64,000 nucleotides of DNA, taken from Xestospongia muta (lineage: Eukaryota > Porifera > Demospongiae > Haplosclerida > Petrosiidae). Below the pieces are notes generated by a model. It searched no databases, was not told the origin of the DNA, and worked only from the letters and a program-made list of their open reading frames with translations. Positions 20,401 through 47,303 of this stretch are shown piece after piece. A program made the translations under genes and the position numbers. Position 1 is the first letter of the stretch. Each line of letters opens with the position of its first letter. Location of the stretch: positions 3,586,618 through 3,650,617 of the forward strand of contig OY848917.1 in NCBI GenBank assembly GCA_963693285.1, given 5' to 3'.

Positions 20401-20970
20401 CATGCAGAGAATTTAGTGGTATATTCTTTTTGTTTTGATTGTAGATCCCATTGTTGATTCTGGTCCATTAAACTCTTCTTTTGTAGATGCTCCACTTGGT
20501 AAGTTAGAAACTTTATTTATTATTTGTCCAATATTTACTTAACTTGTAGAACATGATCTGTTAGAGACTTATCCTGTTAACACATCTAACTTGGATGCTA
20601 TACTAGGTAAAGAAACATCATTAGTATTTGATAAATTAATATGTATTTATGCTTTTATGCAGACAAAAAGCCACAAAGACTTGATCTTCAAAGGTTACTA
20701 GCTCCTATTGAATATCAGTGGCGAGTCGTTGGAGAAGCTCTACAAATTAAACACGGGGCAATTAAGTCCCTTGAGTACAATCAATCATACACTGATACGC
20801 TTCGACTATCAGAAGTACTGCAGATATGGATGGATCAGAAGCCAGCTTTTGTATCTTGGCGTACGATTATTGAAGCAATCGAGAAACCTCCTGTCAATAA
20901 TTCTGCCATAGCTGAAGAAATACGTCAATTTCTTTCTCAGCCCAATGTAATTTCAAATTACACTGAATGA
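2475..20970 (+). CDS. Ankyrin-ROC-COR-Death protein (gene A)
   Basis: Eleven exons give one frame of about 1007 aa: 2475-2507, 4611-4703, 6071-6169, 10780-10878, 14788-14886, 16383-16437, 17967-19648, 19937-20381, 20445-20498, 20550-20606, 20663-20970 (TGA). All introns are GT-AG and every phase matches. The start is MATKD, conserved in three paralogues. Residues 12-141 form four ankyrin repeats, one per phase-0 exon (31, 33, 33, 33 aa), followed by a half repeat (142-159). A ROC GTPase follows: P-loop GPPCVGKT (about 185-192), a switch-II-like DSGGQ (about 353-357) and a G4-like GTYLDQ (about 445-450). COR-like sequence then runs to about 870. The end is a Death domain. This resembles DAPK1 without its kinase; in that family ROC-COR binds GTP and the Death domain recruits partners. 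A role in apoptosis or immune signalling is inferred. No signal peptide or membrane segment was seen. Confidence 0.85.
2508..4610 (+). other. Gene A intron 1
   Basis: An AT-rich intron of 2.1 kb without coding sequence. It aligns with B intron 1 (30631-31815) and C intron 1 (57253-58960). A has a private MITE at 3904-4310. B lacks about 570 bp corresponding to A 3165-3735 and has a (GT)n run at that point. A short (GT)n run also occurs at about 4380-4395. Confidence 0.75.
3904..4310. mobile_element. Non-autonomous TIR transposon (MITE), TA target
   Basis: A 407-bp insertion with perfect 16-bp terminal inverted repeats CCGTATATCGGGAAAC at both ends. Inward the repeats continue imperfectly, sharing ATTTTTGCGAATT. 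It is flanked by TA at 3902-3903 and 4311-4312. Units B (near 31543) and C (near 58658) preserve the empty site, reading TATGTTAGTTTATGT with a single TA. This shows insertion after the units diverged. No transposase frame is present. The TA target fits Tc1/mariner-like mobilisation, but the superfamily is inferred. Confidence 0.93.
4704..6070 (+). other. Gene A intron 2
   Basis: No exon seen. It contains the hairpin element at about 5628-5912. The rest is AT-rich and collinear with B (31909-33270) and C (59054-60141). Confidence 0.7.
5628..5912. mobile_element. Foldback/hairpin element (unit A copy)
   Basis: About 285 bp present in A and B but missing in C, where the sequence passes from CAAATTATCTA straight to TAATGATGTGTG with only a short bridge. 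It contains an imperfect inverted repeat with arms 5770-5821 and 5843-5893, sharing GGTTATTTAGTTG and a GAATTC-containing core, separated by about 21 bp. The exact ends and target duplication could not be fixed. A foldback transposon or MITE is the likeliest reading. Confidence 0.65.
7332..7475 (-). pseudogene. BED zinc-finger exon fossil (hAT-type), module A1
   Basis: On the minus strand an ATG (7473-7475) opens a 48-codon exon-like frame ending AAG before a GTATAT donor. It encodes a BED finger start: SLVWIHFE, then CDICGDKVVTSGNTTNLFK with the two zinc Cys. The His pair expected in the next segment is absent, so it is a fragment. BED fingers are typical of hAT transposases and ZBED genes. 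Homologous 144-bp frames recur at 12194-12337, 15464-15607, 38278-38421 and 41548-41691; a 143-bp copy is at 61403-61545. No downstream transposase exon was found. Confidence 0.75.
8041..8220. mobile_element. 180-bp MITE with TTA target, unit A
   Basis: The ends are AGGCCACCATACA and its inverted form, flanked by TTA at 8038-8040 and 8221-8223. The homologous site in intron 4 (12707-12712) and in unit B (38786-38791) is empty and reads GGTTCTTATCAAACAG with a single TTA. The interior is a nested palindrome rich in TGCAACATGTTGCA, with a hairpin CATGGAATAGA/TCTATTCCATG. A 3-bp TTA target is characteristic of PIF/Harbinger elements; the assignment is inferred. Another copy is at 61912-62090. 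Confidence 0.9.
8280..8663. repeat. Conserved intron block 1 (copy A1)
   Basis: This block recurs at 12750-13130, 38834-39214 and 62520-62903. It keeps open frames on both strands, for example a 107-codon minus frame at 12776-13099. The minus strand has an exon-like piece reading EIVRYCAEQSMIKVIDEV that ends AANRKV-like at a GTAATA donor. I recognise no family. It may be a fossil transposon exon. Conservation may simply reflect recent copying. Confidence 0.5.
9240..9720. repeat. Conserved intron block 2 (copy A1)
   Basis: A segment of about 480 bp copied with the intron modules: 13700-14170, 34930-35410, 39780-40255 and 63470-63945. Short frames in it are not conserved in length between copies and match nothing I know. 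Treated as non-coding repeat DNA. Confidence 0.5.
12194..12337 (-). pseudogene. BED zinc-finger exon fossil, module A2
   Basis: A 144-bp minus-strand frame from ATG (12335-12337) to a GTATAT donor. It keeps SLVWTHFEQKSDDN and CDICGDKVITPGNTTNLFK. It is open but has no continuing transposase. Same fossil as at 7332-7475. Confidence 0.75.
12750..13130. repeat. Conserved intron block 1 (copy A2)
   Basis: Second copy of the block at 8280-8663, nearly identical to 38834-39214 in unit B. The plus frame that starts upstream at 12563 (137 codons) and the minus frame 12776-13099 overlap on opposite strands. Neither has a recognisable domain. Confidence 0.5.
13700..14170. repeat. Conserved intron block 2 (copy A2)
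   Basis: Second copy of the block at 9240-9720; identical in the parts compared to 39784-40254 in unit B. Confidence 0.5.
15464..15607 (-). pseudogene. BED zinc-finger exon fossil, module A3
   Basis: A 144-bp minus frame from ATG (15605-15607) to a donor at 15463, encoding SLVWTHFEQNSDDN and CDICGDKVVISGNTTNLFK. It lies in intron 5 (14887-16382), so three ankyrin-linked introns of gene A each carry this fossil. Confidence 0.75.
16438..17966 (+). other. Gene A intron 6
   Basis: A 1.5-kb AT-rich intron with no recognisable gene or mobile element. It aligns along its length with B 42522-44055; small indels begin after about 17080. Confidence 0.7.
17967..19648 (+). CDS. Gene A exon 7: ROC GTPase plus COR start
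   Basis: This 1682-nt exon carries most of the signalling core (residues 160-720). It starts after TTTGCAG and ends CCTCAG before GTATGT. A Walker A P-loop GPPCVGKT follows a hydrophobic strand. An insert of about 100 residues rich in Ser, Thr and Pro lies between the P-loop and the DSGGQ motif, so these motifs are about 165 residues apart, far more than in a compact small GTPase. After GTYLDQ comes a COR-like helical and winged-helix region (FPVSVRWYMFELIVSEQ). The reading frame stays open into the intron before and after the exon. The paralogous exon in gene B is 44056-45737. Confidence 0.88.
20663..20970 (+). CDS. Gene A terminal exon: Death domain
   Basis: The exon encodes about 102 residues ending SNYTE and TGA. 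The pattern fits a six-helix Death domain: LQRLLAPIEYQWRVVGEAL (helices 1-2), then a charged loop, DTLRLSEVLQIWMDQ (the L..W core of helices 4-5), and FVSWRTIIEAIEKPP with a final amphipathic helix IAEEIRQFL. Such domains act by homotypic binding to adaptors. The preceding exons (20445-20498 and 20550-20606) form a short Ser/Asp-rich linker. A broken second copy of this exon group lies at 26813-27337. Confidence 0.85.
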
Positions 20971-21890: not shown

Positions 21891-22127
21891 TGTGGTAACT
21901 GTATACATATTCATTTTGAATTATTATTTCTGTTAGGCCTTATTTAATTAATTTCCGATGAAACCTTATATGTATGTATGTATATATAGTGCTGTAAAAC
22001 CTTTTTAGTTTTAATTCGTTACAGTTCGTTGTAGTTCGATAGTTCATTATAGTGTTGTTAGTTCAATTAGTGCTGTTATCAAAAAGTTCTGTAAAAAGTT
22101 GTTTTCATCGCGTGCTCGGCTACAACA
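21891..22127 (+). repeat. 5' LTR
   Basis: 237 bp, starting TGTGGTAACTG and ending TACAACA, bounded by TG...CA. It matches the 3' LTR (26123-26356, 234 bp) with scattered substitutions and small indels. A TATATATA stretch near 21975-21990 may be part of the LTR promoter. Confidence 0.92.
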
Positions 22128-22129
22128 TT

Positions 22130-22145
22130 TGGCGACGAGGGTAAA
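22130..22145 (+). promoter_or_regulatory. Candidate primer binding site
   Basis: TGGCGACGAGGG begins two bases after the 5' LTR, where a tRNA primer would pair. TGG matches the CCA end of a tRNA. The tRNA species was not determined. Confidence 0.55.
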
Positions 22146-22148
22146 GTC

Positions 22149-23408
22149 GTGTCAGTTCACGGAAAAATTTCTCAATTCATCCCAAGCCAAGAAAGTTGGT
22201 CGTCCTATACCGAAAGATTAGAGTACTACTTCATAGCAAATGATGTTCAGGATCAGGCTAAGAAGAAAGCCATTTTACTTACAGTGTGCGGTCCCTCGAC
22301 CTTCCAATTACTCAAGAACTTGCTACAACCCAATACGCCAGATAGTAAATCATATGCTGACCTCGTAGACCTGCTTAAAAATCACTTCAACCCAACTCCT
22401 TCAGTCATTATGCAACGTTTCAAATTCAACACGAGGACAAGAAAAGATACCGAATCAGTAGCTACATACGTGGCAGAACTCAAACGTTTAGGTGAATACT
22501 GCGAATTCGGTGATAAATTGAACGAAATGGTCAGAGATCGTCTAGTGTGTGGTGTTAACGACATCCGTATACAAAATCGTTTACTTCAAGAATCAAAACT
22601 AACTTATGATAAGGCCTTCGAGCTTGCTCAGTCAGTCGAAGTTGCTGCTAAAAATGTTGCTGATCTACTAAAAGGGTCGTCCACCCACAACACTACTGTA
22701 GTTCAACACCTGCACAGCAAATCACCACCAAGTACTACATTCAGACGCCATGTTAGCTGTTACCGCTGTGGAGGTTATCATTTAGCTAATATATGTAGTT
22801 TTCAGACAGCAGAATGCAGAGCCTGTGGCAAGATTGGACATATTGCTAAAGTCTGCAGGAGTAAAAATAGACAACCCCCAAGACATCCTCCTGGTGGGAC
22901 TTTCAAACCTCAAGACAGACCTGTTAGATCCTCAAAGAAAGCTAATGTCCACACCTTAACCACAGACTGTGCCCCTTTCCATATCTCTGAAACCTCTGAC
23001 CCTCCTACCACTTCAAATGGGCTGGAACACACTTACCTCTTATTTGCTTTACCTGGGAAAGTCAAACCTATTGTTATTCCAGTTAATGTCAATGGAACAG
23101 ATATTTTAATGGAGGTAGACACTGGTGCCTCACTTTCAATCATTAGTGAACAAACCTTTCAGACCATAGCAAGTCCAACAGACAAGTTACAATCGACGAG
23201 GATTACACTCACCACTTATTCAGGTGACAATCTCCACATCATGGGAACCTACGACGTTCAAGTGGGTTATAAAAGTCAGTCACAGACACTTCCATTAGTA
23301 GTAGTACAAGGCCATGGACCAAGTTTATTCGGGAGAAATTGGTTAGAAAAGATCAAGAGAGATTGGAACTCTATCTACTCACTTCAGGAACAGTCATTAT
23401 CTCATTAA
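22149..23408 (+). CDS. gag-pro: Retrotransposon Gag plus protease (degenerate)
   Basis: A 419-codon frame encoding a Ty3/gypsy Gag. The N-terminal part has capsid-like helices (ESWSSYTERLEYYF near residues 15-28). Two CCHC zinc knuckles follow: CYRCGGYHLANIC and CRACGKIGHIAKVC. The frame continues into an aspartic protease with the catalytic DTGAS in VDTGASLSIIS (near residue 325) and a GRNWL ending. The frame opens with GTG where ATG is expected, and no nearby in-frame ATG is present; I infer a mutated start. It ends at TAA 23406-23408. The frame then shifts before reverse transcriptase. Confidence 0.85.
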   Translation: MSVHGKISQFIPSQESWSSYTERLEYYFIANDVQDQAKKKAILLTVCGPSTFQLLKNLLQPNTPDSKSYADLVDLLKNHFNPTPSVIMQRFKFNTRTRKDTESVATYVAELKRLGEYCEFGDKLNEMVRDRLVCGVNDIRIQNRLLQESKLTYDKAFELAQSVEVAAKNVADLLKGSSTHNTTVVQHLHSKSPPSTTFRRHVSCYRCGGYHLANICSFQTAECRACGKIGHIAKVCRSKNRQPPRHPPGGTFKPQDRPVRSSKKANVHTLTTDCAPFHISETSDPPTTSNGLEHTYLLFALPGKVKPIVIPVNVNGTDILMEVDTGASLSIISEQTFQTIASPTDKLQSTRITLTTYSGDNLHIMGTYDVQVGYKSQSQTLPLVVVQGHGPSLFGRNWLEKIKRDWNSIYSLQEQSLSH

Positions 23409-23421
23409 TAAATATAATTCT

Positions 23422-24610
23422 TTGTTTTCTGATTCTCTAGGTTTGTTACAAGACGCCACTGCTAAATTGTACATCAATACAGAGGCTGCACCTAAATTTT
23501 TCAGAGCCAGACCGGTTCCCTATCGACTAAAGGATAAGATAGAAGTCGAACTCAGACGATTGCAAGATTTAGGTATCATTACTCCAGTTCAACATTCTGA
23601 ATGGGCAGCACCTATTGTTCCTATTATGAAACGAGACGGCTCAATGCGTCTCTGTGGTGATTATGAAGTCACTGTCAACAGAGTTCTCACTCCAGATAAT
23701 TATCCATTACCTCGAATCGAAGATATTTTTGCTGCATTACAAGGAGGAAAGTTGTTTTCTAAATTAGATCTCAGTCAAGCATATCAACAGTTACCTCTAG
23801 ATTCAGATTCAAAAAAATTCACTACTATCAATACTCATAAAGGTCTATTTCAGTTTGAGCATTTACCATTTGGGATTTCAACAGCTCCTAGTATTTTTCA
23901 ACATCTAATGGAGAACCTCCTCCAGGGCCTTCCAAACGTCTGTGTTTACATAGATGACATTCTAGTTTATGGTATAAGTGAAGCAGATCACATGCAAAAC
24001 TAGAACAAGTTTTGTCTCGCCTATCATCAGCTGGAATACCTTGAAACGATCCAAATGCACCTTTGCCACCACTTCAGTGGAAATTTAGGTCACATAATTG
24101 ACAGCACAGGTTTACATCCATCACCTGCTAAAGTTCAGGCAATCCAGAAAGCACCTGCTCCTACCAATATCAGAACTAAGAGCCTTTCTAGGTCTCGTCA
24201 ACTATTATCACAAATTTCTGCCAAACTTATCATCTACATTGTCCCCACTTCATATACTGCTACGTAAAGGTACTAAGTGGAATTGGACTCAGAACCAACA
24301 AATTGCTTTTGACAAAGTCAAAGAACTCCTACAATCAGATGCACTGTTAGTTCATTTTGACAGTACAAAACCATTATTAGTATATGCTGATGCTTCTCCA
24401 TATGGAGTTGGAGCTGTACTGGCTCATAAGATGCCAGACAATTCAGAAAAACCAATAGCATTTACCTCTCGTACTCTCACTCCAGCAGAACGTAACTACT
24501 CTCAACTAGAAAAAGAAGCTTTAGCTATCATCTACGCTGTTAAACGTTTCCACCAATATTTGTATAGTACTCATTTCACATTATACTCAGACCACAAACC
24601 ATTAGAATGA
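23422..24610 (+). pseudogene. pol: Reverse transcriptase and RNase H (frameshifted)
   Basis: Reverse transcriptase is in 23422-24003, with LSQAYQQLPL, the FGISTAPSIFQ block and the catalytic YIDDILV. A TAG at 24001-24003 arises from a frameshift; the homologous reading resumes in another frame. After another shift near 24160-24180, 24098-24610 encodes the RT connection and RNase H (LLVYADASPYGVGA, FTSRTLTPAERNYS, LYSDHKPLE). A TGA at 24608-24610 and a TAG near 24665 interrupt the way to integrase. At least two frameshifts and two stops make pol non-functional. Confidence 0.88.
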
Positions 24611-24721
24611 CTCTTAGGTGAATTTCAACAAATTCCTCCATTGGCCTCAGCAAGAATTCAACGTTAGGCACTCACCCTTGCTGCATATCAATACACAATT
24701 AAGTACAAACCAGGAAAAAGT

Positions 24722-25975: not shown

Positions 25976-26110
25976 TCTATAGATAGTAATACATTTACTC
26001 CTACAAGTACTTTATCTACTAACTCTCCACCTGCTCAATCTCAGCCAGTACGTCGTTCCTCTCGAGTTCGTAGAGCTGTTGACACATATGGTCCATATGT
26101 TTCTTAGCTA

Positions 26111-26122
26111 GGTGGGGGAGAG
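26111..26122 (+). other. Polypurine tract
   Basis: GGTGGGGGAGAG directly precedes the TG of the 3' LTR, the standard plus-strand priming position. Confidence 0.85.
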
Positions 26123-26356
26123 TGTGATAACTGAATACATTCATTTTGAGATATTATTCTGTTAGGCCTTATTTACTTAATTTCTGGTGAAACCTTATAT
26201 GTATGTATGTATATATAGTGCTGTAAAACCTTTTTAGTTTTAATTCGTTACAGTTTGTTGTAGTTTGATAGTTCGTTATAGTGTTGTTAGTTCAATTAGT
26301 TCTGTTATCAAAAAGTTCTGTAAAAAGTTGTTTTCATCGTGTGCTCAGCTCCAACA
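26123..26356 (+). repeat. 3' LTR
   Basis: 234 bp, starting TGTGATAACTG and ending TCCAACA, followed by the target duplication GTCAC. Confidence 0.92.
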
Positions 26357-26644
26357 GTCACATTTCATAAATGTTAAGTAATGTTGCTGAACTTGCTATT
26401 GTAATCGTTTCAAAAGTGATATATAGTTATGTTGTTGCTATGGTAATGTTGTTATGGTGATTGTTATAATGATATAATAGTTGCTATGAAAATGCACATG
26501 TTCCTACTAAGTAACTTTTGTTATGGTGACATATGTGATGTTGCTATTGTATAGATTAAATGGTTTGATGGATTTGGGAAGTCCATGAGTCCAATTGAAT
26601 CTTATATCAATAACATATGGAAATTGAACAATACACTAAAAGAT

Positions 26645-26780
26645 AAATAATATTAGATTTGTCATCATTATAATGATAATACCATTATTACCAAGACTGT
26701 TAAGTCATCTGACTAGAACATAATTATAAACATTAAGTTATTATAGGTGATCTTTCTAATGCATTACTAACAGCTCCATG
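26645..26780 (+). repeat. Flank shared by the two stray adaptor exon groups (A side)
   Basis: About 135 bp containing ATTAGATTTGTCATCATTAT, CTGACTAGAACA, AATTATAAACATTAA and CATTACTAACAG. The same words occur in the same order at 50343-50477, just before the stray CARD exon. Neither intact terminal exon has this flank. Confidence 0.8.
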
Positions 26781-26812
26781 TTAGTGGTATATTCTGTTTG
26801 TTTTGATTGTAG

Positions 26813-27337
26813 ATCCCATTGTTGATCCTGGTCCATTAAACTCTTCTTTTGTAGATGCTCCACTTGGTAAGTTAGAAACTTTTATTTATTATTTGTCCAA
26901 TACTTGTTTAATTTGTAGAACATGATCAGTTAGAGACTTGTCTGTTATCATATCTAACTTGGATTCTATACTAGGTAAAGAAACATCATTAGTAAGCAAG
27001 AAATTAATATGTATTTATACTTTTATGTAGACAAAAAGCCACAAAAACTTGATCTCCAAAGGTTACTAGCTCCTATTGAATATCGATGGCAAATCATTGG
27101 AGAAGCTCTACAAATTAATCATGGAACAATTATGTCCCTTGAGACTAATGTAACATATGATAATACGCTTCGACTCTCACGCATACTACAGAAATGGATG
27201 GATCAGAAGCCAGCTTTTGTATCTTGGGTACAATTATTGAAGCAATTGAGAAACCTCCTGTCAACAATTCTTCCATAGCTGAAGAGATACGACAATTTCT
27301 TTCTCAGCCCAATGTAATCTCAAGTTACACTGAATGA
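26813..27337 (+). pseudogene. Stray broken copy of gene A terminal Death exons
   Basis: Three exons homologous to gene A exons 9-11: 26813-26866 (54 nt, intact), 26919-26974 (56 nt instead of 57, so frameshifted and running into TAG), and 27031-27337 (307 nt instead of 308). The last encodes RLLAPIEYRWQIIGEAL and WMDQKPAFVSW, then loses frame where GGCGTAC has become GGGTAC. Splice sites are still recognisable. Two independent one-base deletions argue for a pseudogene. The stretch lies 6.2 kb downstream of the intact exons, beyond the retrotransposon. Confidence 0.9.
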
Positions 27338-28360
27338 CTCAAATAAGTTAGTTATGTATAATGCGTTGTTGGGTTTTTTGCTAATTTGTTAAACATTAAT
27401 TTTACATTTTATAGTGTATTTGAATTTTTTTTCAAATTAGATAATTGCAAATGTATTGAATGTTTTAATTTGTTTTGTATATTTGAATGTATTGTTTTTT
27501 TTCATAAATATTGTTAGTTGAATTAATTGTGTCCTTACAATTACCTTTTTGGTATGTCCTCTCAAATCAAATCACAATGAATGTGATCAATGTATCATTA
27601 ATACAACACTCCAATTGTACATTGATACCAATACAGTGTCATCAAAGAAAAGAAGGTTGCAGTTTCTATATTAGCTGTTATCTGATAAAGTTCATGCTTG
27701 AACTCCTTATTATGTGTCTGACCAGCCATTAGAGCAGGCCTTAGAGAAATTGAACAGTTTGGAAATAAATGGTTTCTTTTTATTGAAACTTATTGATAAT
27801 TTATAGAAATTAAATAATGGTCATTCATTAAATATCTGGTAGGTTTAGCATTGCACTATGCAAACATAAACAAATAGTGTTGTATTAGTATTGTATTTTT
27901 CAAGTATACATCAGATATAACCTTCAGTATTCTATTAATATCCTCTGTTGCATATTATATGTATTGGAACATTATACACTATGTGTGATACAATAGTGTA
28001 TAACAATTATATACATGCATGTATACCATGTGTATAAATGAGTATACTATTTGTATAACATAGTATAAATAGGATATACACTATGTATACTAGAGGTATA
28101 TTCTATAGAGTTTAACAAGTATATCTTTTAAGTAACATCCTCCAATAACAATTACAATTGTACATATATTGAAATTAGATTAAAATAACATGAAGAATTA
28201 TTTTTAAGAAATAAACATAAACCAAACAACATATTACACATGATGTAACATGATGTAACTATCAAAGAATACATGCACAAAAGATTAAATCAAATGTTTT
28301 CACATTAAATTATTTGAGATGAATCAGTTACTGAGGTTTCATTTGATGAGATCACCCATT
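27338..28360. other. Intergenic, AT-rich, no gene seen
   Basis: Up to about 27570 it resembles the 3' flank of gene A. After that only AT-rich DNA is seen, with an irregular array of TATAC/GTATA words at about 27980-28110. No supported coding region. Confidence 0.6.
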
Positions 28361-28367
28361 CTTTCAC

Positions 28368-30597: not shown

Positions 30598-31309
30598 ATG
30601 GCGACTAAAGATGGAAAAAAGATGGAAATTGTAAGTAAAACGACTCATTAATAGTTAGTAATATGTTGTAATGACTCTATTTATCGTATAAAGTTGGTAA
30701 TAGTTGTACACTCAGTCTTATCTCCTTTGTATACATTAACATTGACACTACAGTATCTTGTATACTACTGAGTTATTACTAACTTCTATTAACATAGTCT
30801 CTCATATAGTCTATTATAATACTCCTTTATATCAACTGATATCTATAGTAGTTAGGTGTGGCCTGACCCTTAGTTATTAATTAATTAAATAATCAGGTCT
30901 GTCACCTTATATAGTCATTGCTTGTGGAAATGGAGTCCCTGTGTCAGGACCACTTCATATACAGAAATTGTGACACACAGTTCTATAAAAGAATGTGCTA
31001 ATTAACTGCTGTAGCATATAGTGTGGTAGAACAAGTTTGATATATACATGTAACTAGATCCTTCCTCTCTAAGCAAATGGGTGACAATGACATACTGGCT
31101 TTTGGTATGACTACATTAGTTTTAAATGAGTTTAAAGATGACTTATAATAACCTAGTGGAGTTAAGGATTTTAAAAAATCAGTGATAAACACGAAAACCT
31201 TTTTCTAATAATTAAATTTGAAGTTAACATTTATACCTGCTCTACTTTTATTTGACTGTTTACTATTTCAATTATGATAGAAGGGTTAAAATAACACTTC
31301 TAGTTAGTA

Positions 31310-31342
<33 letters not shown>

Positions 31343-34300
31343 TAAAAATAGTAACATTTCTAGTATGGGAAAAGTGAGATATTTCATTTACTTGTGTGGG
31401 AGTTTCACACTTCTCTCTCTATCTCTTCTGCCTTTTCTGTCATTATATACTCTTGTTATTAACTTATTATATGTTAATGAGAAACATGATGATACCTTGT
31501 GTACTACTGATATGAGTGTGCATTATTTAGAGTATGTATGTTAGTTTATGTACCTACTATAATTATACAGTGTAGTTATTATTTTGTATGTACATATTAT
31601 AATAGACAATAGTGTGTGTGTGTGACAAACTGTTACTCACCTACATGTACTAATGTAACTTAATATCACATACTAGTACAAGTTTGTAGACATGTCAAAA
31701 TAATTGAAAAATTATGAGATGACTATATTTATAACATGAGTAATTAATTATATATGGTTTATTCTCTTGAGTTATATAGTGAATTACTTTATAATAGTGT
31801 GTTCCTCTTCCTTAGGACTATGATCTATATAGAGCTGCATTATATGGTAATATAGCAAAAGTAAAGAAAGCAATTGAAAATGAAAATATTCATGTTGATG
31901 CTAAAGACGTAAGTAATATCATTATAATCACACTACAATACTTACAAGATCTAATGGGAACTTTAATTATACAGTGATTACTAGTAGTATTGTTATTGTT
32001 ATTGTATAATTTTATTTTAAGTGTATACAGACAAAAAGTACTTATTTTGGAACTAGAAAATAAATTATTGGCCAGAGAATATAAAGTGAAATTATTAAGT
32101 TAGTCAACAACAACTTTGAAGTGACTATAGGTCATTGTGTTCATAATAATGTGTGAGGTCCACACTTTACAACTGATTTATAGCTGATCCAGTGTTTTCC
32201 TGAAGTGTGTTAAGTACATTTGTTGCACACTTTGATTTTCATTAGAAGTAGGTGGGGTTAAAGCCACACCCATCAAACAAGCTTGCCTTGAATTGTAATA
32301 CTATTTTGTAAATAAAGTTTTATTAATAAAATGACTCGTTGAACATGTGCTTTTTCCTGACTCTACTTTGGACTCTTCCAATCTTTCTTCAGATCTGTAA
32401 GAAAAAAATGTCAAAGTGACCACATGACTAAGTAATGTATTATCTAAAAGTACTACATCATTTTAATGTTGTTTAGTAGACAACACTCATACTAATTACA
32501 GTGTAGTTGGTAACTTTGGCTTGTAATAATATTATTTGGTAGATTGATCTACAATCTGATAATTTAACTTTGATATAATAAAATTTGACTGTGTTCTTCT
32601 GTTAACAAAGGAACATTCCTTGAGTATATTGATACTGAGTCTGTTGAGAAACATTTTAAGAAAGTGTGTTCTAGTCATTTTCTGTACTATATCACTTGAA
32701 AGTGTCCTCAATTAAACTTAAAACTCCACCCTCTACATGACAACAATTAATATTGGTTAAATTAAATTTGGTAATCCATGCAAAGATTTGTCAAAACAAC
32801 AAATTTAATTGTCTTCAAATTATCAATTTTTAGTTTATACCAGATGCAAATACTGCAATTTGATTGGCCAGCCTCAGGTTTTTATATTTATTAATAACCT
32901 GTACGGAGATTACTATATAAAATATTATGGTAACGCGATGTTATTGTGTCTCTTAACTAAGTCACCTAGTGCCCTATGCGTCGGTTATTTATTTGCTCAG
33001 TAACCTTGAATTCAAAATAATGCCCTTACCTGCGACTTGGGTATTATTTGGAATTCTCGGGTTACTAAACAACTAAATAACCTCACGTAGGACTCTAACT
33101 ATCACATAGTAATAAAGTTAATGATGTGTGAAATTTGTAATGATTGTTTGTTGATTTTCAAAGGATTATGTGTACTTTTTGGAATAAACTATGATATTGA
33201 GTTATTATAATATGTTTGTGTACTTAATATATCACATGTAATGATTTATCATTTATATCTCTTTGTTCAGGGTAGTTTCACAATGCTACATGTAGCAAGT
33301 GAAAGAGGACACGAAGAATTAGTTATTTATCTTTTAGGTATGGGAGCAACTGTGAACATTCAAAATTGGGTAAGTGTAAATATTTACATTGTATAATATA
33401 TATTTCATATTTATAAGTTATAACATAGGACAGCAACTATTTGTTTTGACATAAAAGATTACCTGTGTTGCTTAAAACTGTTGTCATAACTTTAGCTATC
33501 ATATCATAACTGATATACACAGTTCTAAAGCTACAGTTTATTATAAAGGTTAAGAGTCAATTCTCATATTTCTGGCTTTTATTATTCCTATATTTAAACA
33601 CTGCCCTTGAATGGTGACCATCCTTGAATGTCTCTCCCTGTTGGACATGAATTAAACACTTCAACAAGTTCAGCTATATTCAGCTATATAGCACATGTGT
33701 AACAATTAATAAACCACACTCCCACAAAACGTTTCTTTAAAAATTGTATGACATATCTCATTATCTTGTTTCTCAACCAATCATGAAAATTAGGACCCTC
33801 AAATTTACTTACTGTACGGTACTTCCATTCTTGATATTAATAAAATTTAATGAGACAGAACCAGTCTATAAGAACCAGTCTATATTGTCTACATGTACCT
33901 TGCATTTATACTAAACCACAAAAACTTGTGTTCTAACACAATATTAGCTGTAATATGATCCAGTCTGTAGATGAGAACTTAGGTTTCAATCTGTGATATC
34001 TAGTATATTGTACATTAGTTTATTAATAGAGTTAACATTAATGATTGTTATGTATTATACATAATCTTTAATGTTACAATAATGTTGTTTACACCATCAT
34101 AATTTCACATGGTCTTTTAATAGTCACATATAACAGTAACACTTAAACACACACGTGTACATGTGATTCTAAACAATCTTGAGAAACTTTATATGCCAGG
34201 CTGTAACAATTGTGTATTAAGTAATATAATTATATGGACCCATATAGAAGACTGTCCCATTTTAGAAAGCTCTAATAAAACTAGACAATAGTCTATCATA

Positions 34301-37300
34301 TCTTTGAAAGAATGACATTTATGACTTCATACAATTGTAGATCTATTGTTGATTTGTCTACTACTTTCTAGTTAGTATTGAACCTCTCCTTTGTCTACAT
34401 GATATATTGAATAATAATTATCATGACTGTTGAGCAGTATACCTTGTTTTTGTAGCTACTATGTACTGACTTTCATTGTACTATTCCTACTCTGGTCTTG
34501 TATGATACATTATGATACCATTTCTACCTTTTCTGAGTCTTTGATAGTCAATATTATAGATTACAATGAATTCAGGTTTGTTATCGCTATATTTTACTAG
34601 TATGGAAGAAAAATGTTATAGCCATTCTCAGTAATGTTTTTCTATAAATGAAATAGAAGCAGTCTGTATAGTCTAAATGTAGATTTCATTTCTACTTGTA
34701 AACAGTACTGGCTACTTTTAACATATACCGAGTTATCCCTGTCATATACATAATGTGATAAGCTAAGCTGGGATATCTCATTTTAAGATATCTAGCATGT
34801 TTTATGATATTTTAGCAATATTCTTGCCAATAGAGGTTGTTAACAGCTCTGTAATACAGTTAACTCATTTACTGTTACTCTAAATAAATTGATTGGTTAC
34901 TTTATATAGTTATTTAAATTACATATAAAGTATTAGACACTAAGAAGTAGTAAATATCACTACAGTCATGTAGTTAATTGTCAGAGCTATGAAGATTCCA
35001 TTTAATGTCTCATTAGTTAGACATAAAAAGTTAATGAATGTTGGGTCCTGTATTTGTGAGGGCTGTTGCTATGAAATTTATAAGAGGACAATCTTTGATA
35101 CCACATACATGTCCTTTCTAAGAAGTCATTTCTTGAAGTTCATGAAATGTCATTTCCATAGTAATCAAAACAACATATATACTGTCAAGAGTTTTAAATG
35201 TATTTTGTAGTCATGTAAACAACCTAAATGATCATGAACAGGTTAAAACAAGCAATTTATTTGAAGAGTGTAGTAATCTGTCTCTTACTTGTACAAGTCT
35301 GTACATACATTGTACATTTGTCACTAAAGTATTTAAATTAGGAAAGTACTAACTTTTTCTGATGGAGGTTATAGAAAATTTTTGTTCAAATAATTGATGT
35401 TATGAGTCAATCACATTAATTTATTACATGATATTGTTGTGATTAGCTATACTTAATTCTACTAGCATTGCCAGTAAAGTCAATATAGTGTAATGGATGT
35501 TATATGGTGAGTACTTAAGACAAAACTACAAAATCTCAATATAATAATATTAGTGGTTATTAATATTCCAGTCCACATGTAATAGTAAAGTGGAGAATAT
35601 TAGAATTGCTAAGCCCTAGAAATATTTGTGGTTATCTTGTATAAATACTGTTAATCTTGTCCACTTCATTAGTTATAACAAACCTTGAAGATTATCCCAG
35701 AAGGTCCTACCACTCAATTCTCCGTGATATTCTAATTAGAGCACAGGAGATTGGCTGTCCCAAGCTACAGTATATATTAGGTTTAAATCATTGTTGGGAT
35801 AATTGCAATTGGTAATTGTAATTATCTGTAATCATTACATAATTAGCTGTAATCATTACATCATTCATAAATATTGTAGTTGTAATTGCAATTGTATATC
35901 TGTAATTGAGAAATAATTGGATGGCTAAGCTACACACAATAAATCTATTCTGGTAAAGGGTCGTCACATCACATGATGTACACATGACCATAATTATTAT
36001 GAGTAACTAAAGTGGTTTATGAAACCATTTTGCAAATTGCACTGTAACCTTCTTGCACAAGGTCATGAATGATGTAGAGCACTTGTATAGGGTACTGATA
36101 ATAGCTATTGTAATTGTGTGTAATTACTATCAATTTATTGTTGTAATTGCTGTGTAATATGTAATTGGTAATTGTAATTGAAATTGGATGATGAAAAACA
36201 GAAGTAATGGTAATTGTAATCAATTACTTTTTTATGGAGATTGGCTGTCCCAAGCTATAGTATATATTAGGTTTAAATGGGTCCATCCAAAATAACTAGA
36301 ATAATTGTTTATCATTGACACAAGAAACCAATGCCCTTAGATATGTACTTAATATAAAGATAATAAATAGTTTTAGGTATGAATTTAATCAGTCATAAGT
36401 ATGAAATGCCTCCAAAAAATGTTATTACTTATTGCTAAAAATATTTATTACCTGGCCTTTTATCTGTTTATTAATCTGGTGCTGCCTTCTACACTTGTAC
36501 CTGCTAACTCTCTACAGCAGGAGGTATATATATTATAAAATATGAGGTTAACTAACATTATGGTATCGTATTATAGTTGTGACCAGTGAGGGTACAATAA
36601 TTTAGTACTTTTATGATGTAGTATTGTAGTATATATTAGATATAATGATAGTCTGTGTCCTGAGTAATAGTTATCTAGTAACAGGTACTTAGTATTAACT
36701 AGTTTACATTCCTATTAAGCTAGTAAGGAATATATACAGTCTCATTTAACATTACCTTACATATTAATGTTTTAGTACAATTATATCTTTACAGTACACT
36801 GTACCAGTAAGTATAATATGTATATTATAAGGTGTTAGTAAGGACCAGGTACATCAAGTTATGATTGTTATCAGTTGTAAGTGTATGTATAGTACATGTA
36901 CTTTTGTAACATGACATATTGTTTATCAGGTCTGTGTATAATATATAATGTAAAAGTGTTTTAGTACTTAATGTATACACATGTACTACATGTGATATAA
37001 CTATGTAATGTGTAGTTTGTACTTATCTATATGTTGTGACCTTTATTTCTATTATTAACAGTACGGACAAACTGCTCTACATTATGCCTGTAGTAATGGA
37101 CATACAGGTACTGCCCAACTTTTAATTTCGAGTGGTGCCAATATCGACATTACTGATAAGGTTAGTAGTGACATCAAATTATTGTATTTTGTAAACATAT
37201 TAATGACAATAACAGTTAAGTGATCATCATATATGAGTACATCTAAAATGCCACACATGTCCAAGCACTCCACTGACTGTCAGTACTGTACTACTGACTT

Positions 37301-40300: not shown

Positions 40301-43300
40301 TAATTAATTATAATTGCTAAGCCCTAGAAATATTTGTGGTTATCTTGTATAAATATTGTTAATCTTGTCCACTTCATTAGTTGTAACAAACATTGAAGAG
40401 TATCCCAGAAGGTCCTACCACTTGATTCCCCATGACATTCTAATTAGAGCACAGGGGAATGGCTGTCCCAAGCTATAGTATATATATTAGGTTTAAATGG
40501 GTCCATCCAAGATAATTAGACTAATTGTTTGTCGTTGATACAAGAAACCAATGCCCTTAGATATGTACTTAATAATAGATAATAAATAGTTTTTAGGTAT
40601 GAATTTAATTAGTCACATGTATGAAATGGTTCCAAAGAATGTTTGGTTATCTCAAGGTATAGTATATATTATGATTGTTATCAGTTGTAAGTATATGTAT
40701 AGTACATGTACTTTTGTAACATGACATATTGTTTATCAGGTCTGTGTATAATATATAATGTAAAAGTGTTTTAGCACTTAATGTATATACATGTACTACA
40801 TGTGATATAACTATGTAATGTGTAGTTTGTACTTATCTATATGTTGTGACCTTTATTTCTATTATTAACAGGATGGACAAACTGCTCTACATTGGGCCTG
40901 TAGTGATGGACATACAGGTATTGCCCAACTTTTAATTTCAAGTGGTGCCAATATCGATATTACTGATAAGGTTAGTAGTGACATCAAATTATATGAGTAC
41001 ATCTAAAACGCCACACATGTCCTAGCACTCCACTGACAGTCAGTGCTGTACTACTGACTTCTGAATTACTAACTATAGCCTATGAATTGCCTGTAGTCCG
41101 ACACACCTGTGAACAAATTTACGATATAGTATATACTGTATTTTGGTATAACATTAGTTATTGTGTATTCACCACAGTGACTACAATTATATCAGAGTTT
41201 CACTACATGTGGGTAGTAGTATATACTACATAGTCCCAGAAGTATTTATGACTTCATAGCATTGAAGTGTAAACACTTGAGGAGAAAAGTACATCTATAA
41301 TGACTTTACATGTTTTAGTTGAAGGTGCTATAAGTGATAAGAGGAGTACAATATCCCATGAGAAATTGACAATAAAAAGTCACAATGTAACAGTTAGGGC
41401 ATGTATGTAGAATGACAGTTGTTATGCTAATAGAATTATCTTTTTAGTGGACATCAGATAATGATAATGCAGCTGCATCAATTAAACAATGATGTTACTG
41501 TATATTACAACTGTACACTATTTTAATGATTCATGTAGACTATATACCTTAAACAAATTGGTTGTGTTTCCTGATATGACAACTTTGTCACCACAAATAT
41601 CACAAATACCATTGTCATCAGAATTTTGCTCAAAATGAGTCCATACCAAGCTTCTTTTGTGCTTGTTTATTGCTCCTCCTGCAGTTGTCATAATTAATCA
41701 ATAGTAGACTAGAGAATAAGATTTCTAACAACTCAATACATGTTAGCTTTTGATCTCGATCAATTTGATACTAAAGTAAACTTAAGTTTGGTATGTGAGT
41801 GGCTAGTGGCTAGTTAGCTTTATTACAGGTGTGGTTAATACATATATTGATATTAATACAGCAACAATCACAATACCGATAATAATCAATATTCTAAAAT
41901 ATCAAAAGTATTGATCAATAGTTCAATATATATCACCCATTATTAATGATGATGCCTTTTCACATACATGGTTTTCCTATACACTATTTTATGTGAAGTA
42001 AAAATAGTTAATTAATTTGCCCTGGGTAGGGCCTTTTTATGTCCAACCTCCTCGTTTAATGGAAGAAACTTTGTAACTGTTGTCATAGTAACTGGTATTG
42101 TGCTATCATTGAAAACTTATTCAGTTTGTCATTTGTTTTTGATATATATCAGTATAGTAAGTAATGTAATTCTAATTCTCACTTTGGATTGTTAGTTACA
42201 ACACTCAAGTCAATGTATTATATATACATGTACATGTGTATATACATAATGTTTATACATATATCATGTACATGTACATTTTATACACATACATGTACAC
42301 AGCATGTACCCTGAAACTTTATACCTTAAATACCAGGCACTAAAGAGTTTTAATTTTTCACCTAATATTTTCTATGATATATATATAACTACAATGTAGT
42401 TAATTTGTTAATATCAATGACAGTTTAATATCTGAAATTATTTGTGATTTATTTATGTTATTTTAGGATGGCAAGAAACCATTGGATTATATTAGAAATA
42501 AAGAGACTGTTCAGTTATTAAGTAAGTGGTTTATTAAGTGTACAATGTTTGTTGTTTTAACTTTTCATATAATACTGTACACAACACCTGTAATCTTTAT
42601 ATTTACCAAATGAAAGTATCATTACAGTTTTTCACAATGTTAGTTCACTTTTTGAGTATTAAGAACTAAAATGTGGTAGGAAGATAAATGCATGATAGTA
42701 TTTTTCTAGTCAAAAGATCATATGTTATTGCTCTACCTTCAACAGTTGTGAAATGTATTGTAACATCAATTTCACTTAAAATATTTGTAACAAATGGTAA
42801 ACGTTAACGCCTTAAAATTGTCAATGACATATTTTTTAAATCAAACTTTAGACTCAATAAAAAGTGTTAACTCTTGATGTAGAGTGGTGCAATAATTATA
42901 TGTACAAACCAATTTATGTTGTCATCAATACAATTACTTTGAACAATATTGTATTTATTATTAGTGGTATAAACAACACATCATTTGTTACTCCCATTAT
43001 ATCATGAAATAAAATGTTAAAACAAATTAAAGTTGAATGTAGTCTTATGTAAATTTATGGTTTGAATTGATAGATATTATGAAACTAAAGAATTTTCAGT
43101 ATTTACTCAAGAAACTGTGTAGCCAGTTTTATTTGTGGACATGACTTTTTTACTAAAATATACATGAGATTATATTTCTTGTTAACTTCCTTTCCACCAT
43201 ATTTAATTTATGCTGAGTTAATTTTTAATTTTTGTCATTGGAGGATTAATCAAAGTTCCAATGAAAAAACTGGCTATATGGCAATCTGACTAAACTTTTA

Positions 43301-46300
43301 AAATTTATACATGTATCAGAGCTACAATACCTGGTACAACAATATAAAACATCACATATTAACTGGTTAAATTTGTTGAAAACTGTTTTAGCTGAATATA
43401 TGATTAATGGCCTATAGCTCAATGTAATTGGTTTACTTACCACCGAGATATAAATATGCATTTCATTTTTTTGTAGTTTTATGATAATCATTTAAATCTT
43501 GTTTGCCATTACAACTGTCAAGTGTTCATCCACAATGGTCTTATGTTAAGTTTACAAAAGTAATAGCTTATGATTAAGTGACCTTGTAAGCATACTTAAA
43601 TAAAAGAATTTGTGAAGTTCTTTTAATAGTTAATACAGTTTGTAATACAATTATGTGTGATTACAACTTCAATTGTGGGCATTCTAGTACTAGGAATAAT
43701 ATCACAAAATTATAATTATATTAAGGTAAAATTCATATGTGGGATAAAATTTAATACCACATGGACAGTTATATTTGAGTAATATAAAATTCACGTAACT
43801 GTGTTATTAAAGGTTTTGTGTATTAAACTTTTGTATTGGTATAATTATTCAAAAGATTCTTAAGTTGATTTGTTCTGTATAAGGATTAAGAGATTAAAAG
43901 GTTTCATAAATCAACGTTTTACCACAAAATGTTTTTGATATAAATAAAATTTATTGTTACTATATCCAAATTAGGAAAAAGAATTATGACATAATAAGTA
44001 CTTGAATAAAATTTTTAAATGTACTTCTAATGTTATATACTCTTGTCCTTTGCAGAATCTATTCCAGTGTTCAAAAGAGGACTACATGAAGGCTATGTGT
44101 ACATTACGAGTCTGAAGTTAGTCCTTCTTGGGCCACCCTGTGTTGGAAAAACAGCATTCAAAAATCTTCTTTTCAATTGGCCTGCTCCAAAAAATCATCA
44201 CAGCACAGCCATATCTACTCGTCCAATTCGTGCAATAGAGAGAGTGACAGATCAGAAGGAAGGCAAGATATGGCTTCAAATTACTGAAGTGGAGTTGTTT
44301 AAAATGCTCTCAGATGCAATTCAAGATCTACCTGCTACCAAAGGTTCTGCTGCAATTAGCTTGAAACAAAAATCGAGTGAAGCGTCTGCTAATTCTTCTG
44401 CCTCAACACATGAGCCAAAGGATATTTCTACAGTGACACCAGTAACAACTCCAAGTTCTCTTAATGCTTCGACCACATTATTGCCTTACTCTTCACCTGA
44501 TGTTGTGGAAGAGGATGTACCACAACCTAAACCACAATTGGATTCTACCTACTACTCAAAGGATATACTTGATCTACTTGCAAAACGTAAGAAGTCAGAA
44601 GAGCTACATAGGTCAACGTGGATACATGTTCTTGATAGCGGTGGCCAACCTCAATTTGCTGATATATCTCGATTTTTTCTTCATGGTAATGCAATACATG
44701 TCATCCTTACAAAGTTAACAGAAAGCCTTTATGATAAGCCTCAGTTTTGTTATTCAATGAATGGCAAGTTACTGAACCAACCCAGTGAGCTCCAAATGAC
44801 CAACCTTGAGCTTATAGAAAATTTTGTGCGTTCCATTGTCTCTTCTAAAAATATAATGGCATCAAAGGGAACAACAGTTGTAACCTCAAAACCTTTGTTT
44901 GCAATTGTTGGTACATACCTTGATCAGCTTAACAAGACTTTTAAGAAGTCAAGAGTAGTAGAAATTTTGAGGGAAAGAAATGCACAGCTTTTGTCTGCCT
45001 TACAAGAGTTTAGAGGTCACTTTATATTTTATGATGATGAAGCAAAGGAGCTTACTTTTCCAGTTGATAATTTGTGCTGGTGGAGTCGTAAGAAGATATC
45101 TTCAGCAATCCGTCAACGAATCATGTCTAAAGTTGGTGTCGGCTTTAATTTTCCAGTACCAGTTCGTTGGTATATGTTTGAATTAATAGTGAGTGAACAA
45201 GCATCACAAGAAAAACATGGTATCATCCCCTTTGACAATTGCTGTGAGATTGGTGGTCAACTGAGTATGGATGTAAGTGAGGTGAAAGAGTGTGTAACCT
45301 TTTTTGACTCTCTAAGTCTGTTCCTGCATTATCCCAAAGTCCTGCCTAATATTATTTTTACTAATCCTCAATATCTTTTAGATTCACTCTCCACTTTAAT
45401 AAGATTCTCATTTGTTGATCTGTTAGAGGAGATATTACCAGATGAAGAGCTATCATCTGAAGATCAACGTTTACTTCGTGAAGATGGCATCTTTGAAGGT
45501 TTACTTCTTGATAAGCTTTCTCTTCCTTTTATTCCTCATCTGTTCTCAAAGGATGATTTTCTTCAGTTACTCTGTCATCTATGCATTATTGCTCCTCTTC
45601 CTACAGCTGATCCTGTGAGGCGTTATTTTATGCCAATTGTGTTGACACCCTCTGTAGTAACAGATGAGGATAAAGCAGTGTACATGACTTCATGTGATCC
45701 TATGATCATTGAGTTTAGCAGTAAAGTAGTCCCTCAGGTATGTGTTAATAAAACCACATACAGTGTATAGCACTTTAAATTTGTTTTCTGTGTGCATTCC
45801 TTGTATTTTTATGGATATTTATAATTAATACTTAGCTTTTATAGTATTAACCATTCTTAACTTATTGTGTGATGACTTGAATAGATATTATGACATTTCA
45901 TACTTCTTAAAATACTATAGTATATTATAGCTTAATAAAATTAGTCAATGCAATGTATAAACAGTTTCATAGTTTATAATGTCTTAATACAATTGAGTAA
46001 GTAATCCTTGTCTCTTTGTTTATAGGGCATATTTCCTGCTATGGTGGTGTCACTATTAGGTAGAAAAGATAAACCTCAATTTTCAGTTGATAGTGGATCA
46101 CGCACTTTTGAGAGACAACGTCGCTATGGAGTTAAGCTACATTCTGAAGATCCCTTTGGCAATGTCCTACTTGTAGACAACTTTAAGAGCATTGAAGTCT
46201 ACTTTACCGGTCTTCCAGAGAAATGTCCTTTTGTTCGTGAAGCTATCAAAGAAGCCATAGCTACCTGTACTGAACTGTTATCATATGACACTAAAGACTT

Positions 46301-47303
46301 GAAGATCTTAGCAACTTTGACATGTAGACAGAAACATCGTAAAGATGATGGCAAGCTACATGGTGTACGTCTGCGTCCTGATAATAATCGTTTCCTTGCA
46401 AATTGCTTAGTTGAATCAGAAATTGCCACTTTTATAATAACTGATCCACGACAGCTCTGCTGGTTAAATGGTAAGTGTATATATTCATACATGCAGAGAA
46501 TTTAGTGGTATATTCTGTTTGTTTTAATTTTAGATCCCATTGTTGATTCTGGTCCATTAAACTCTTCTTTTGTAGATGCTCCACTTGGTAAGTTAGAAAC
46601 TTTTATTAATTATTTGTCCAATATTTACTTAACTTGTACACACATTGTTCTGTTGTTATTTCATAGTATTACTTTACATTTCAGGTTCATCTAGTACTAA
46701 TGAAGAGGATCTAGTCAGAGGTCCACATTCAACATCAGGTCTGTATTATTATTGGTGGAACAACTTATTTTGTTTATGAGGAATTGTTTTAACAGCTTTC
46801 CTTAATATTCTTTATATATTTATATAAATATGTTATTACTTAATTATAATGAAATAACTATCTGTGGCTACAAAATATGACCCTTACTTTATTCACACTT
46901 TTTATTTTATACTCTAGATGATACTCTGAACTCTGATGTAGCTAGACGAGCTTTAGTTAAATATACCAGTGCTATTGTTGAATCAACTATTGAACCCACT
47001 GTTCTAGCAAGGAGACTGGTTGAAAAAGAAGTTATTTCCGAGAATGTTTACAAGATTGTAAAAGACAAGAAAACAGGAGATACAAGTACAGATCGTCTTG
47101 AACTGATTCTTGATGATCTAAAGGATCATGTCAAACACAATGCTAACGCCTTTATGATTTTCCTGGATATTTTAAGAGATGATAGTTTAAATCGACAAGA
47201 CCTAGCTGACATAATAATGTCAAAATATAAAGGTATTATATATTAGCTTTAGTCCTTTCTTTAGAAAATACTCATTTCTGTTTCAGAATTAGCTACATCA
47301 TAA
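30598..47303 (+). CDS. Ankyrin-ROC-COR-CARD protein (gene B)
   Basis: Twelve exons give one frame of about 1014 aa: 30598-30630, 31816-31908, 33271-33369, 37062-37160, 40872-40970, 42467-42521, 44056-45737, 46026-46470, 46534-46587, 46685-46738, 46918-47232, 47287-47303 (TAA). All junctions are GT-AG with matching phase. Body as in gene A: MATKD start, four ankyrin repeats (the second has the canonical TMLHVAS, where A and C read TMLIGAS), half repeat, ROC with GPPCVGKT and DSGGQ, COR. From exon 10 on it is unrelated to A: a short Ser-rich linker and a CARD-like domain, then ELATS. An AATAAA follows at about 47459. In known families a CARD binds other CARDs, such as caspase or adaptor partners; the same upstream sensor would thus feed a different pathway from A. 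This functional step is inferred. Confidence 0.85.
30631..31815 (+). other. Gene B intron 1 with (GT)n and a deletion
   Basis: Collinear with A intron 1 but lacks about 570 bp equivalent to A 3165-3735. A perfect (TG)n run of about 31 bp (31311-31341) sits at the join. It also lacks the 407-bp MITE. Confidence 0.75.
31311..31341. repeat. (TG)n microsatellite
   Basis: An uninterrupted TG dinucleotide run at the place where unit B lost sequence relative to A and C. Confidence 0.9.
32823..33108. mobile_element. Foldback/hairpin element (unit B copy)
   Basis: Homologue of A 5628-5912 with the same inverted arms around GAATTC. Present in B and absent from C at about 59970. Shared presence in A and B suggests that A and B are closer to each other here, or that C lost it. 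Confidence 0.62.
33370..37061 (+). other. Gene B intron 3
   Basis: Shorter than the A counterpart. The part holding the BED fossil, MITE and block 1 is missing, with unrelated sequence at 34326-34586. Block 2 is present at about 34930-35410. A private insertion or duplication lies at 35747-36278. Confidence 0.65.
35747..36278. repeat. TAATTG-rich insertion flanked by 42-bp direct repeats
   Basis: Direct repeats 35747-35788 and 36237-36278, beginning GAGATTGGCTGTCCCAAGCT, enclose about 450 bp. The interior is full of GTAATTGTAATTAC-type words in both orientations and has strong self-complementarity. A and C lack it. Likely a palindromic AT-rich element with a long target or flank duplication; the class is unknown. 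Confidence 0.7.
38278..38421 (-). pseudogene. BED zinc-finger exon fossil, module B1
   Basis: Identical in the parts compared to A 12194-12337 (offset 26084). A minus frame from ATG to a GTATAT donor. Confidence 0.75.
41548..41691 (-). pseudogene. BED zinc-finger exon fossil, module B2
   Basis: Counterpart of A 15464-15607 at offset 26084. It keeps CDICGDKVVISGNTTNL. Confidence 0.75.
44056..45737 (+). CDS. Gene B exon 7: ROC GTPase plus COR start
   Basis: Same length (1682 nt) and frame as A 17967-19648. The P-loop GPPCVGKT, DSGGQ and GTYLDQ motifs are unchanged. By eye, 14 of the protein differences from A fall in the roughly 109-residue Ser/Thr-rich insert before DSGGQ, against about 8 in the other about 466 residues. 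Confidence 0.88.
46918..47232 (+). CDS. Gene B exon 11: CARD-like domain
   Basis: A 315-nt exon encoding about 105 residues of mostly helical sequence: LNSDVARRALVKYTSAIVES, then VLARRLVEKEVISENVYKIV, RLELILDDLKDHVKHNANAF, and MIFLDILRDDSLNRQDLADI. This follows the CARD pattern: a long helix 1, an L...L..K.VI.E.....I block, R...LLD.L, then F..FL..L. It has no similarity to the Death exon of gene A. A DED or divergent Death domain is the main alternative. A truncated relative lies at 50499-50680. Confidence 0.75.

Follow-up and report, generated by a model that had tools for sequence, protein, structure and literature searches.

Genes A (2475-20970) and B (30598-47303), neighbours in a 64,000-nucleotide stretch of the genome of the sponge Xestospongia muta (the window, C1:3586618-3650617), are ankyrin-ROC-COR genes by their predicted exons, and they end in different death-fold domains: a Death domain in A (20663-20970) and a CARD-like domain in B (46918-47232). 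Both belong to a tandem array in which the bodies are mosaic, tails have been exchanged and replacement changes are in excess at the ankyrin contact positions. We conclude, with a probability of roughly 70%, that A and B are tandem intracellular recognition genes composed of a variable ankyrin sensor, a constant ROC-COR switch and an exchangeable death-fold output. An earlier reading of the letters alone (the sequence-only reading) had proposed that a single GTPase body carries two classes of death-fold tail in adjacent genes, and on this point it was right. Our searches covered a genome of 158 Mb in 28 contigs. L-numbers denote fetched genomic loci, P-numbers denote protein relatives in the search list, C1 and C6 are contigs, and array genes are named by their C1 position in kb (3502, 3522, 3541 etc., 3541 being L026).

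Tail classes and gene anatomy

The tail of A matches the Pfam Death profile PF00531 at 21.4 bits (E 2.9e-4), below the cut-off of 22.6, and the tail of B matches the CARD profile PF00619 at 18.8 bits (E 0.0016), below the cut-off of 23.9; in the full-length B model, CARD is found at 14.3 bits (E 0.043). These are the assignments that the sequence-only reading had anticipated, and the relatives of both tails in this genome support them. PF00531 is matched by all eight Death tails, A included (best E 4.2e-6), and PF00619 is matched at E<=0.1 by 10 of the 15 CARD tails, B included (best E 4e-6). Furthermore, the Death and CARD tail profiles are not alignable with each other (hhalign probability 0.3%). 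On these grounds we agree that the two classes differ.

When the Death profile is compared with the PDB, FADD chains appear at E 0.016-0.1, the top two rows being a designed TIM barrel and THO complex subunit 1. The structure model of the Death tail is of low confidence (mean predicted local distance difference test score, pLDDT, 59) and contains six helices, the last of which is short. Foldseek ranks the Death domains of FADD, RIPK1, TRADD and RAIDD first among PDB entries, with FADD at probability 1.00, a query-normalised TM-score (TMq) of 0.62 and the best E of 0.066; no match reaches E<=0.001. The profile match and the six-helix fold of the model together suggest that the tail of A is a Death domain. 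The structural comparison is thus in line with the sequence-only reading for A, whereas the model of the CARD tail does not settle its class.

The body that carries these tails is of the ROCO type. The P-loop is present in all 14 genes with such a body and DxGGQ in 13 of the 14, and we take both to be ROC GTPase motifs. The Pfam Roc profile gives 21-21.6 bits on A and B against a cut-off of 27, and the homologues P0038 and P0085, at 46-50% identity, carry PF08477. The ROC exon of A is also 44-45% identical to the Amphimedon queenslandica proteins P0099 and P0105. COR is assigned by homology, as P0041, P0078 and P0085, which align over almost the entire ROC exon, carry PF16095; no COR-A Pfam match was obtained in A and B themselves. 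ROC with its motifs, directly followed by COR, places A and B among the ROCO proteins. In the full-length B model, Pfam detects at E<=1 no protein kinase domain, which would characterise the DAPK family, and neither NACHT nor NB-ARC, which would characterise NLR proteins.

The spliced models comprise 11+996 amino acids for A and 11+1003 for B, close to the residue numbering of the sequence-only reading; the start given there, 20499, falls close to the 3' end of A, which begins at about 2475. All exons lie on the plus strand. Gene A opens with a 33-bp ATG exon of phase 0 (2475..2507, MATKDEKKMGF) with a GT donor, and an exon of this kind is present in all three units of the window (2475, 30598 and 57220). 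It continues with ank1 (4611..4703), ank2 (6071..6169), ank3 (10780..10878), in which the contact positions are variable, ank4 (14788..14886), which is identical in B, and ank5 (16383..16437), a partial ankyrin exon that ends in phase 1. ROC and the first part of COR, with the P-loop GPPCVGKT and DSGGQ, occupy a single exon (17967..19648), followed by the second COR exon (19937..20381; 98% amino acid identity to B), linker micro-exon 1 (20445..20498), which is common to both tail types, the Death-type linker micro-exon 2 (20550..20606) and the Death-domain exon including the stop (20663..20970). Both micro-exons are of phase 1-1.

Gene B has the same layout except for its second micro-exon and its CARD-like exon. 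Its first exon (30598..30630, MATKDGKKMEI) is followed by ank1 (31816..31908), ank2 (33271..33369), ank3 (37062..37160), ank4 (40872..40970), ank5 (42467..42521), ROC with the first part of COR (44056..45737), the second COR exon (46026..46470), linker micro-exon 1 (46534..46587), the CARD-type linker micro-exon 2 of phase 1-1 (46685..46738) and the CARD exon (46918..47232). A short last exon encoding ELATS and the stop is predicted at 47287..47303, and readthrough from the CARD exon into the following intron also meets a stop soon. In both genes ank1-ank4 are exons of one repeat each with phase 0-0, so that phase 0 prevails between ankyrin exons, and the introns 3' of the second COR exon are predicted to be of phase 1. 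The tails are therefore exchangeable with the reading frame kept.

The block 11566-20562 of A and the block 37649-46654 of B, which end in the intron 5' of the tail exons, are 98.7% identical. Within the ankyrin part, the statement that the two genes agree almost residue for residue holds only for ank4 and ank5; it fails for ank1, ank2 and ank3, where A and B differ at 7 of 31, 6 of 33 and 6 of 33 residues, respectively.

The tandem array and the exchange of tails

Thirteen genes with this body form an array of ~325 kb at C1 3.50-3.83 Mb, comprising eight with CARD, four with Death and one CARD-to-Death hybrid. Their order is CARD 3502, Death 3522, hybrid 3541, CARD 3580, Death 3607 (A), CARD 3633 (B), CARD 3660, 3690, 3715, 3743 and 3772, and Death 3800 and 3825. 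The sequence-only reading had described two alternating tandem paralogues; the tandem arrangement is correct, the number of two and the strict alternation are not. The fourteenth gene, Death-tailed, is located outside the array at 11.48 Mb. This gene (C1:11479076-11483500, L027 and L052) is the one without DxGGQ, and P0005, a 99.8% identical protein from another record, reads DSGSQ at that site. The next array gene in the window has its first exon at 57220..57252 on the plus strand and its CARD ~9.6 kb past the window end (C1:3660267).

The genome-wide counts are lower bounds, the best 150 of 264 candidates having been scored for the CARD query and the best 150 of 1554 for the Death query. Among the matches listed, the CARD query finds eight near-identical copies between C1 3502632 and 3772493, and the Death query finds copies on C1 at 3522544, 3528982, 3543212, 3607282 (A), 3613650, 3662325, 3800359 and 3825115. 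Three of these (3528, 3613 and 3662) lack a full body and are loose Death cassettes: L024 is open, L028 contains a TGA, and the cassette 3' of A (26637..27345, plus strand) is frameshifted, with Death matches in two frames (27033-27248 and 27194-27334). The last consists of 144 bases of CARD-side intron (26637-26780) followed by micro-exons and the Death exon (26781-27345). It is possible that such cassettes provide raw material for tail exchange. Between the Death exon of A and this cassette lies a long terminal repeat (LTR) retroelement (21891-26356) with gag, protease, reverse transcriptase and integrase frames by Pfam and LTRs of 93% identity; it is also present in the duplicate that includes the 3800 gene. 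Degenerate 5' fragments of the CARD exon lie ~3 kb downstream of the CARD genes B (50311-50668) and 3772 (L034:4268-4623), preceded by an intron stretch that matches ZU5-type CARD genes.

Loose Death cassettes follow A, the 3522 gene and the 3660 CARD gene, and the A and B tail exons are compatible in phase; both facts would suit a locus that makes a Death and a CARD isoform from every gene by a choice of last exon. We consider this improbable, as tblastn at E up to 0.1 detects, in the window, no CARD match between the Death exon of A and the beginning of B, nor any Death match after the CARD exon of B. The cassette after A is frameshifted and that after 3660 is interrupted by a TGA, whereas that after 3522 is open.

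The fragments, the broken loose cassettes and the retroelements among the units also raise the question of whether most array genes are pseudogenes or non-expressed, in which case the mixture of tails would be debris. The coding sequences make this improbable. The ROC and COR exons are open in all 14 genes, and the pooled ratio of nonsynonymous to synonymous differences per site (pN/pS) of the body is 0.34 (computed on 12 genes, after exclusion of the two of the 14 that differ in length by 6 bases). No internal stop occurs in the eight array CARD tails or in the Death tails of A, 3522, 3541, 3800 and 3825. The pN/pS of six Death exons, one of which (L024) is a loose cassette, is 0.44.

Most bodies differ from A by 3-5%, and two relationships are closer. 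A and the 3800 gene lie within a 26 kb duplicate of 99% identity, ~190 kb apart, and between A and B identity is 99.5-100% from 11621 to ~16800 and 95.8-98.8% thereafter. The identical or near-identical DNA extends over ~4.8 kb (A 11621-16419, B ~37707-42500), including ank4 and ank5, and neighbouring parts are 95-99% identical; it reflects either a conversion of very recent date or an effect of assembly. The A/B pair and the A/3800 duplicate could be artefacts of haplotypes that were misjoined or repeats that were collapsed, and the near-perfect identity over 4.8 kb and the 26 kb copy at 99% speak for this. We regard it as very unlikely, as most bodies differ from A, the tails differ, and P0001, from another record, shows no difference from the 3502 gene across 560 residues. 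P0002 and P0003, from other records, are only ~96% identical to the nearest array gene, which may indicate that gene content differs between assemblies or individuals.

A more substantial alternative is that Death-type and CARD-type genes are old and interleaved, with fixed tails, and that recent gene conversion has equalised their bodies. It is favoured by the A-B comparison, in which 11 of twelve 400-column bins spanning 11621-16419 are 100% identical and the twelfth 99.5%, by the 95.8-98.8% identity from ~16.8 kb, and by the three-way site patterns of A, B and the 3800 copy, which are mosaic. Conversion tracts must also stop where the tails are non-homologous, as the A-B identity does at 20562/46654. 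We hold this explanation to be possible, if rather doubtful, and the structure of the tail junctions is what speaks against it.

In a tree built from the ROC-COR genomic region (14 rows, the hybrid counted as Death, exon borders misplaced by 1-2 bases), the tail label requires five changes, no fewer than the means of 4.8 (CARD) and 4.7 (Death) that shuffled labels give. The well-supported branches alone force at least two changes, and monophyly of the bodies of the eight CARD genes is rejected (approximately unbiased test, p-AU 0.0001). B is A-like up to 46654, and from 46638 its linker exon and intron match a gene on C6 (L017/L053); from 46908 the CARD exon and 3' region match it as well, at 86-91% identity. 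The body/CARD-cassette junction of B thus lies at 46638..46654 on the plus strand, where the capture of a tail by intronic recombination is visible. The C6 gene encodes ZU5 (21.8 bits, cut-off 21) plus a Death domain of its own, and no ROC or COR match was found within the 3.3 kb fetched upstream.

The hybrid L026 retains the CARD-type linker and intron to a point equal to 46908, which in B is 10 bases short of the CARD exon. There follow ~190 bases that match the intron directly before the CARD exon in ZU5-type genes (89-91% identity to L017, L019, L020 and L053, ending in L017 ~20 bases before the CARD exon) and then the Death cassette. The same junction occurs twice in L026, by tandem duplication, and again both at window 26780/26781 and in L024, so that it had a single origin and was then copied; the loose cassette in L028 carries a piece of COR exon instead. 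A CARD-type linker and CARD-side intron leading into a Death cassette represent a change of tail, which fixed tails do not explain. The intronic junction in B and the hybrid therefore indicate that tails themselves moved, and only these two show it. The proposal of the sequence-only reading that output is diversified by replacing the last exons is borne out by both junctions and by tails that do not follow the body phylogeny.

The CARD cassette is also found on other bodies. For 16 of the 150 CARD matches, hand-picked across contigs, we fetched 3.6 kb ending in the CARD; ROC was detected by tblastn in three of these (L059, L060 and L066). Ten open frames from 8 of the 16 loci were scanned with Pfam, the other loci being assessed by eye or not at all. 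ZU5 scores above the cut-off in L053 and below it in L054 and L066, Death above it in L053 and below it in L064, and COR-A above it in L060 and just below it in L066; L068 has ankyrin and a sub-threshold Roc, and the scanned frames of L055 and L059 gave no Pfam domains. In L066, an apparent ROC-COR, a ZU5-like domain and a CARD lie within 3.6 kb. The array CARD is 87% identical to those of the ZU5-type L017 and L018, compared with 68% for L059 and L060 and 57% for L066, whose bodies are ROC-COR. It is thus nearer to ZU5-type CARDs than to other ROC-COR CARDs, as transfer between body classes predicts. Moreover, since the CARD cassette, the linker exon and the 3' region are common to ZU5-type genes, the cassette has moved between bodies at least once, contrary to what fixed tails would require. 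That bodies of several kinds carry a conserved CARD suggests a single CARD partner common to many sensors.

Two features of the window lie apart from these genes. A short tandem repeat of ~32-base units, as judged from self-match offsets, occupies 1589-1878, and two integrase-like open frames (85-561 and 55456-55932; Pfam rva_4, E ~1e-59 and ~1e-53) occur at corresponding sites of the repeated units.

Variation at the ankyrin contact positions

The ankyrin exons were collected with the ank4 exon as query; the best 150 of 2984 candidates were scored, 25 of which lie within the array. We take positions 2, 3, 5, 13, 14 and 33, numbered as in designed ankyrin repeat proteins, to be the contact positions. 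Designed ankyrin repeat proteins have six randomised positions, a number for which the cited part of PMC6590788 is our source. Among 24 array exons, the mean entropy is 1.74 bits at the six contact positions and 0.27 elsewhere (permutation p 5e-5), and pairwise pN/pS is 5.2 at the contact positions and 1.28 at all others. Among 25 exons (22 unique), 86.5 replacement changes were inferred, of which 48.5 fall on the contact positions (expected share 0.19, p 6e-14); of the 7.5 silent changes, 1.5 fall there (expected share 0.15). For the 22 unique exons, the nonsynonymous-to-synonymous rate ratio (omega) is ~7.6 at contact positions and ~1.1 in the scaffold without position 10. A repeat in each symmetric exon combined with diversifying selection is the pattern of an exon-shuffled ROCO receptor, with ankyrin instead of leucine-rich repeats (LRR). 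This variation, and the CARD cassette common to non-ROCO genes, go beyond the sequence-only reading.

Several observations weigh against a recognition system of this kind. A Fisher test of replacement versus silent changes at contact versus other codons is not significant (p 0.096), owing to the small number of silent changes. The scaffold omega of ~1.1 is not below 1, position 10, outside the contact set, is variable too, and conversion among ankyrin exons violates the assumption of a single tree. With respect to the tails, the eight array CARDs have a pN/pS of ~1.0 at 1.7% divergence, and the Pfam matches of both A and B remain below the curated cut-offs. The CARD model has six helices, a pLDDT of 61 that is too weak for a class, and no significant fold match. 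In addition, the splice junctions of A and B are predicted, and the discordance between bodies and tails could also be explained by conversion of bodies between genes of fixed tail.

Putative function and relation to known ROCO systems

ROC-COR acts as a nucleotide-dependent switch in other ROCO proteins, and Death and CARD domains recruit partners by like-with-like contacts. In the reading preferred here, the switch is kept similar among copies by segmental duplication and gene conversion, and intronic recombination between phase-1 exons has placed a Death or a CARD cassette onto it. The ankyrin stack, with its varying contact residues, is the likely sensor and would bind the ligand, presumably a microbial or self/non-self marker. 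Binding would change the GTP state or dimerisation of ROC-COR, and the changed state would cluster the tails. Clustered tails could then recruit Death- or CARD-containing partners, so that two outputs, probably through different partners, would be served by one kind of sensor. The most likely role is recognition in innate immunity or of self versus non-self, with cell death or inflammatory-type signalling as the outcome. More tentatively, the array may be seen as a natural equivalent, written into the genome, of a designed library of ankyrin binders, with positively selected contacts, one GTPase switch and an output cassette exchanged independently of the sensor.

If this reading is correct, it shows how varied intracellular receptors could be built in an early-branching animal with a switch that is neither NACHT nor NB-ARC. 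Such receptors would combine an ankyrin sensor with a GTPase of the LRRK2/DAPK type and with death-fold outputs that can be interchanged. Bodies that are nearly identical but differ in their tails would also be a natural domain-swap experiment on ROC-COR with its death-fold partner.

DAPK1 combines ankyrin, ROC-COR and a Death domain in one protein. It differs from B in its kinase, for which the full-length B model gave no match, and A has the same exon layout as B. Amphimedon queenslandica LOC109584972 (P0099) has the ankyrin-ROC-COR-Death order of gene A and 44% identity over the ROC exon; the two Death domains share only 18% identity across 72 residues. A single tail search yielded no CARD-tailed relative.

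Large lineage-specific sets of Death-fold and TRADD-N proteins, which mix Death-fold, ankyrin and other domains and are proposed to act in immunity and cell death, are reported for Amphimedon in the portion of PMC8195603 cited here; that portion describes neither a ROC-COR basis nor the exchange of tails on a constant body. The brown algal LRR-ROCO proteins are an expanded family of proposed immune receptors (PMC11378527, in part). Like the present genes, they encode each repeat in an exon of its own, and they share exon shuffling and a repeat sensor under diversifying selection. They differ in having LRR where the sponge genes have ankyrin, and neither a death-fold tail nor an exchange of outputs is described in the pertinent part of that paper.

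The sequence-only reading held that a tandem ROC-COR family alternating Death and CARD is, to its knowledge, not a described system. As worded, this claim is not supported, as the excerpts of Civiero et al. (2014, PMC4104024) used here report at least 17 ROCO genes in Trichoplax adhaerens, some with CARD and some with Death, and those of PMC11378527 restate it. As in the sponge, these are ROC-COR proteins of a basal animal with CARD or Death; the same excerpts of PMC4104024 do not describe a near-identical tandem array, exchanged tails, ankyrin sensor exons or contact-site variation. What appears to be new relative to known ROCO systems is the combination of ankyrin contact-site variation with the exchange of output cassettes on a near-identical body within one array.

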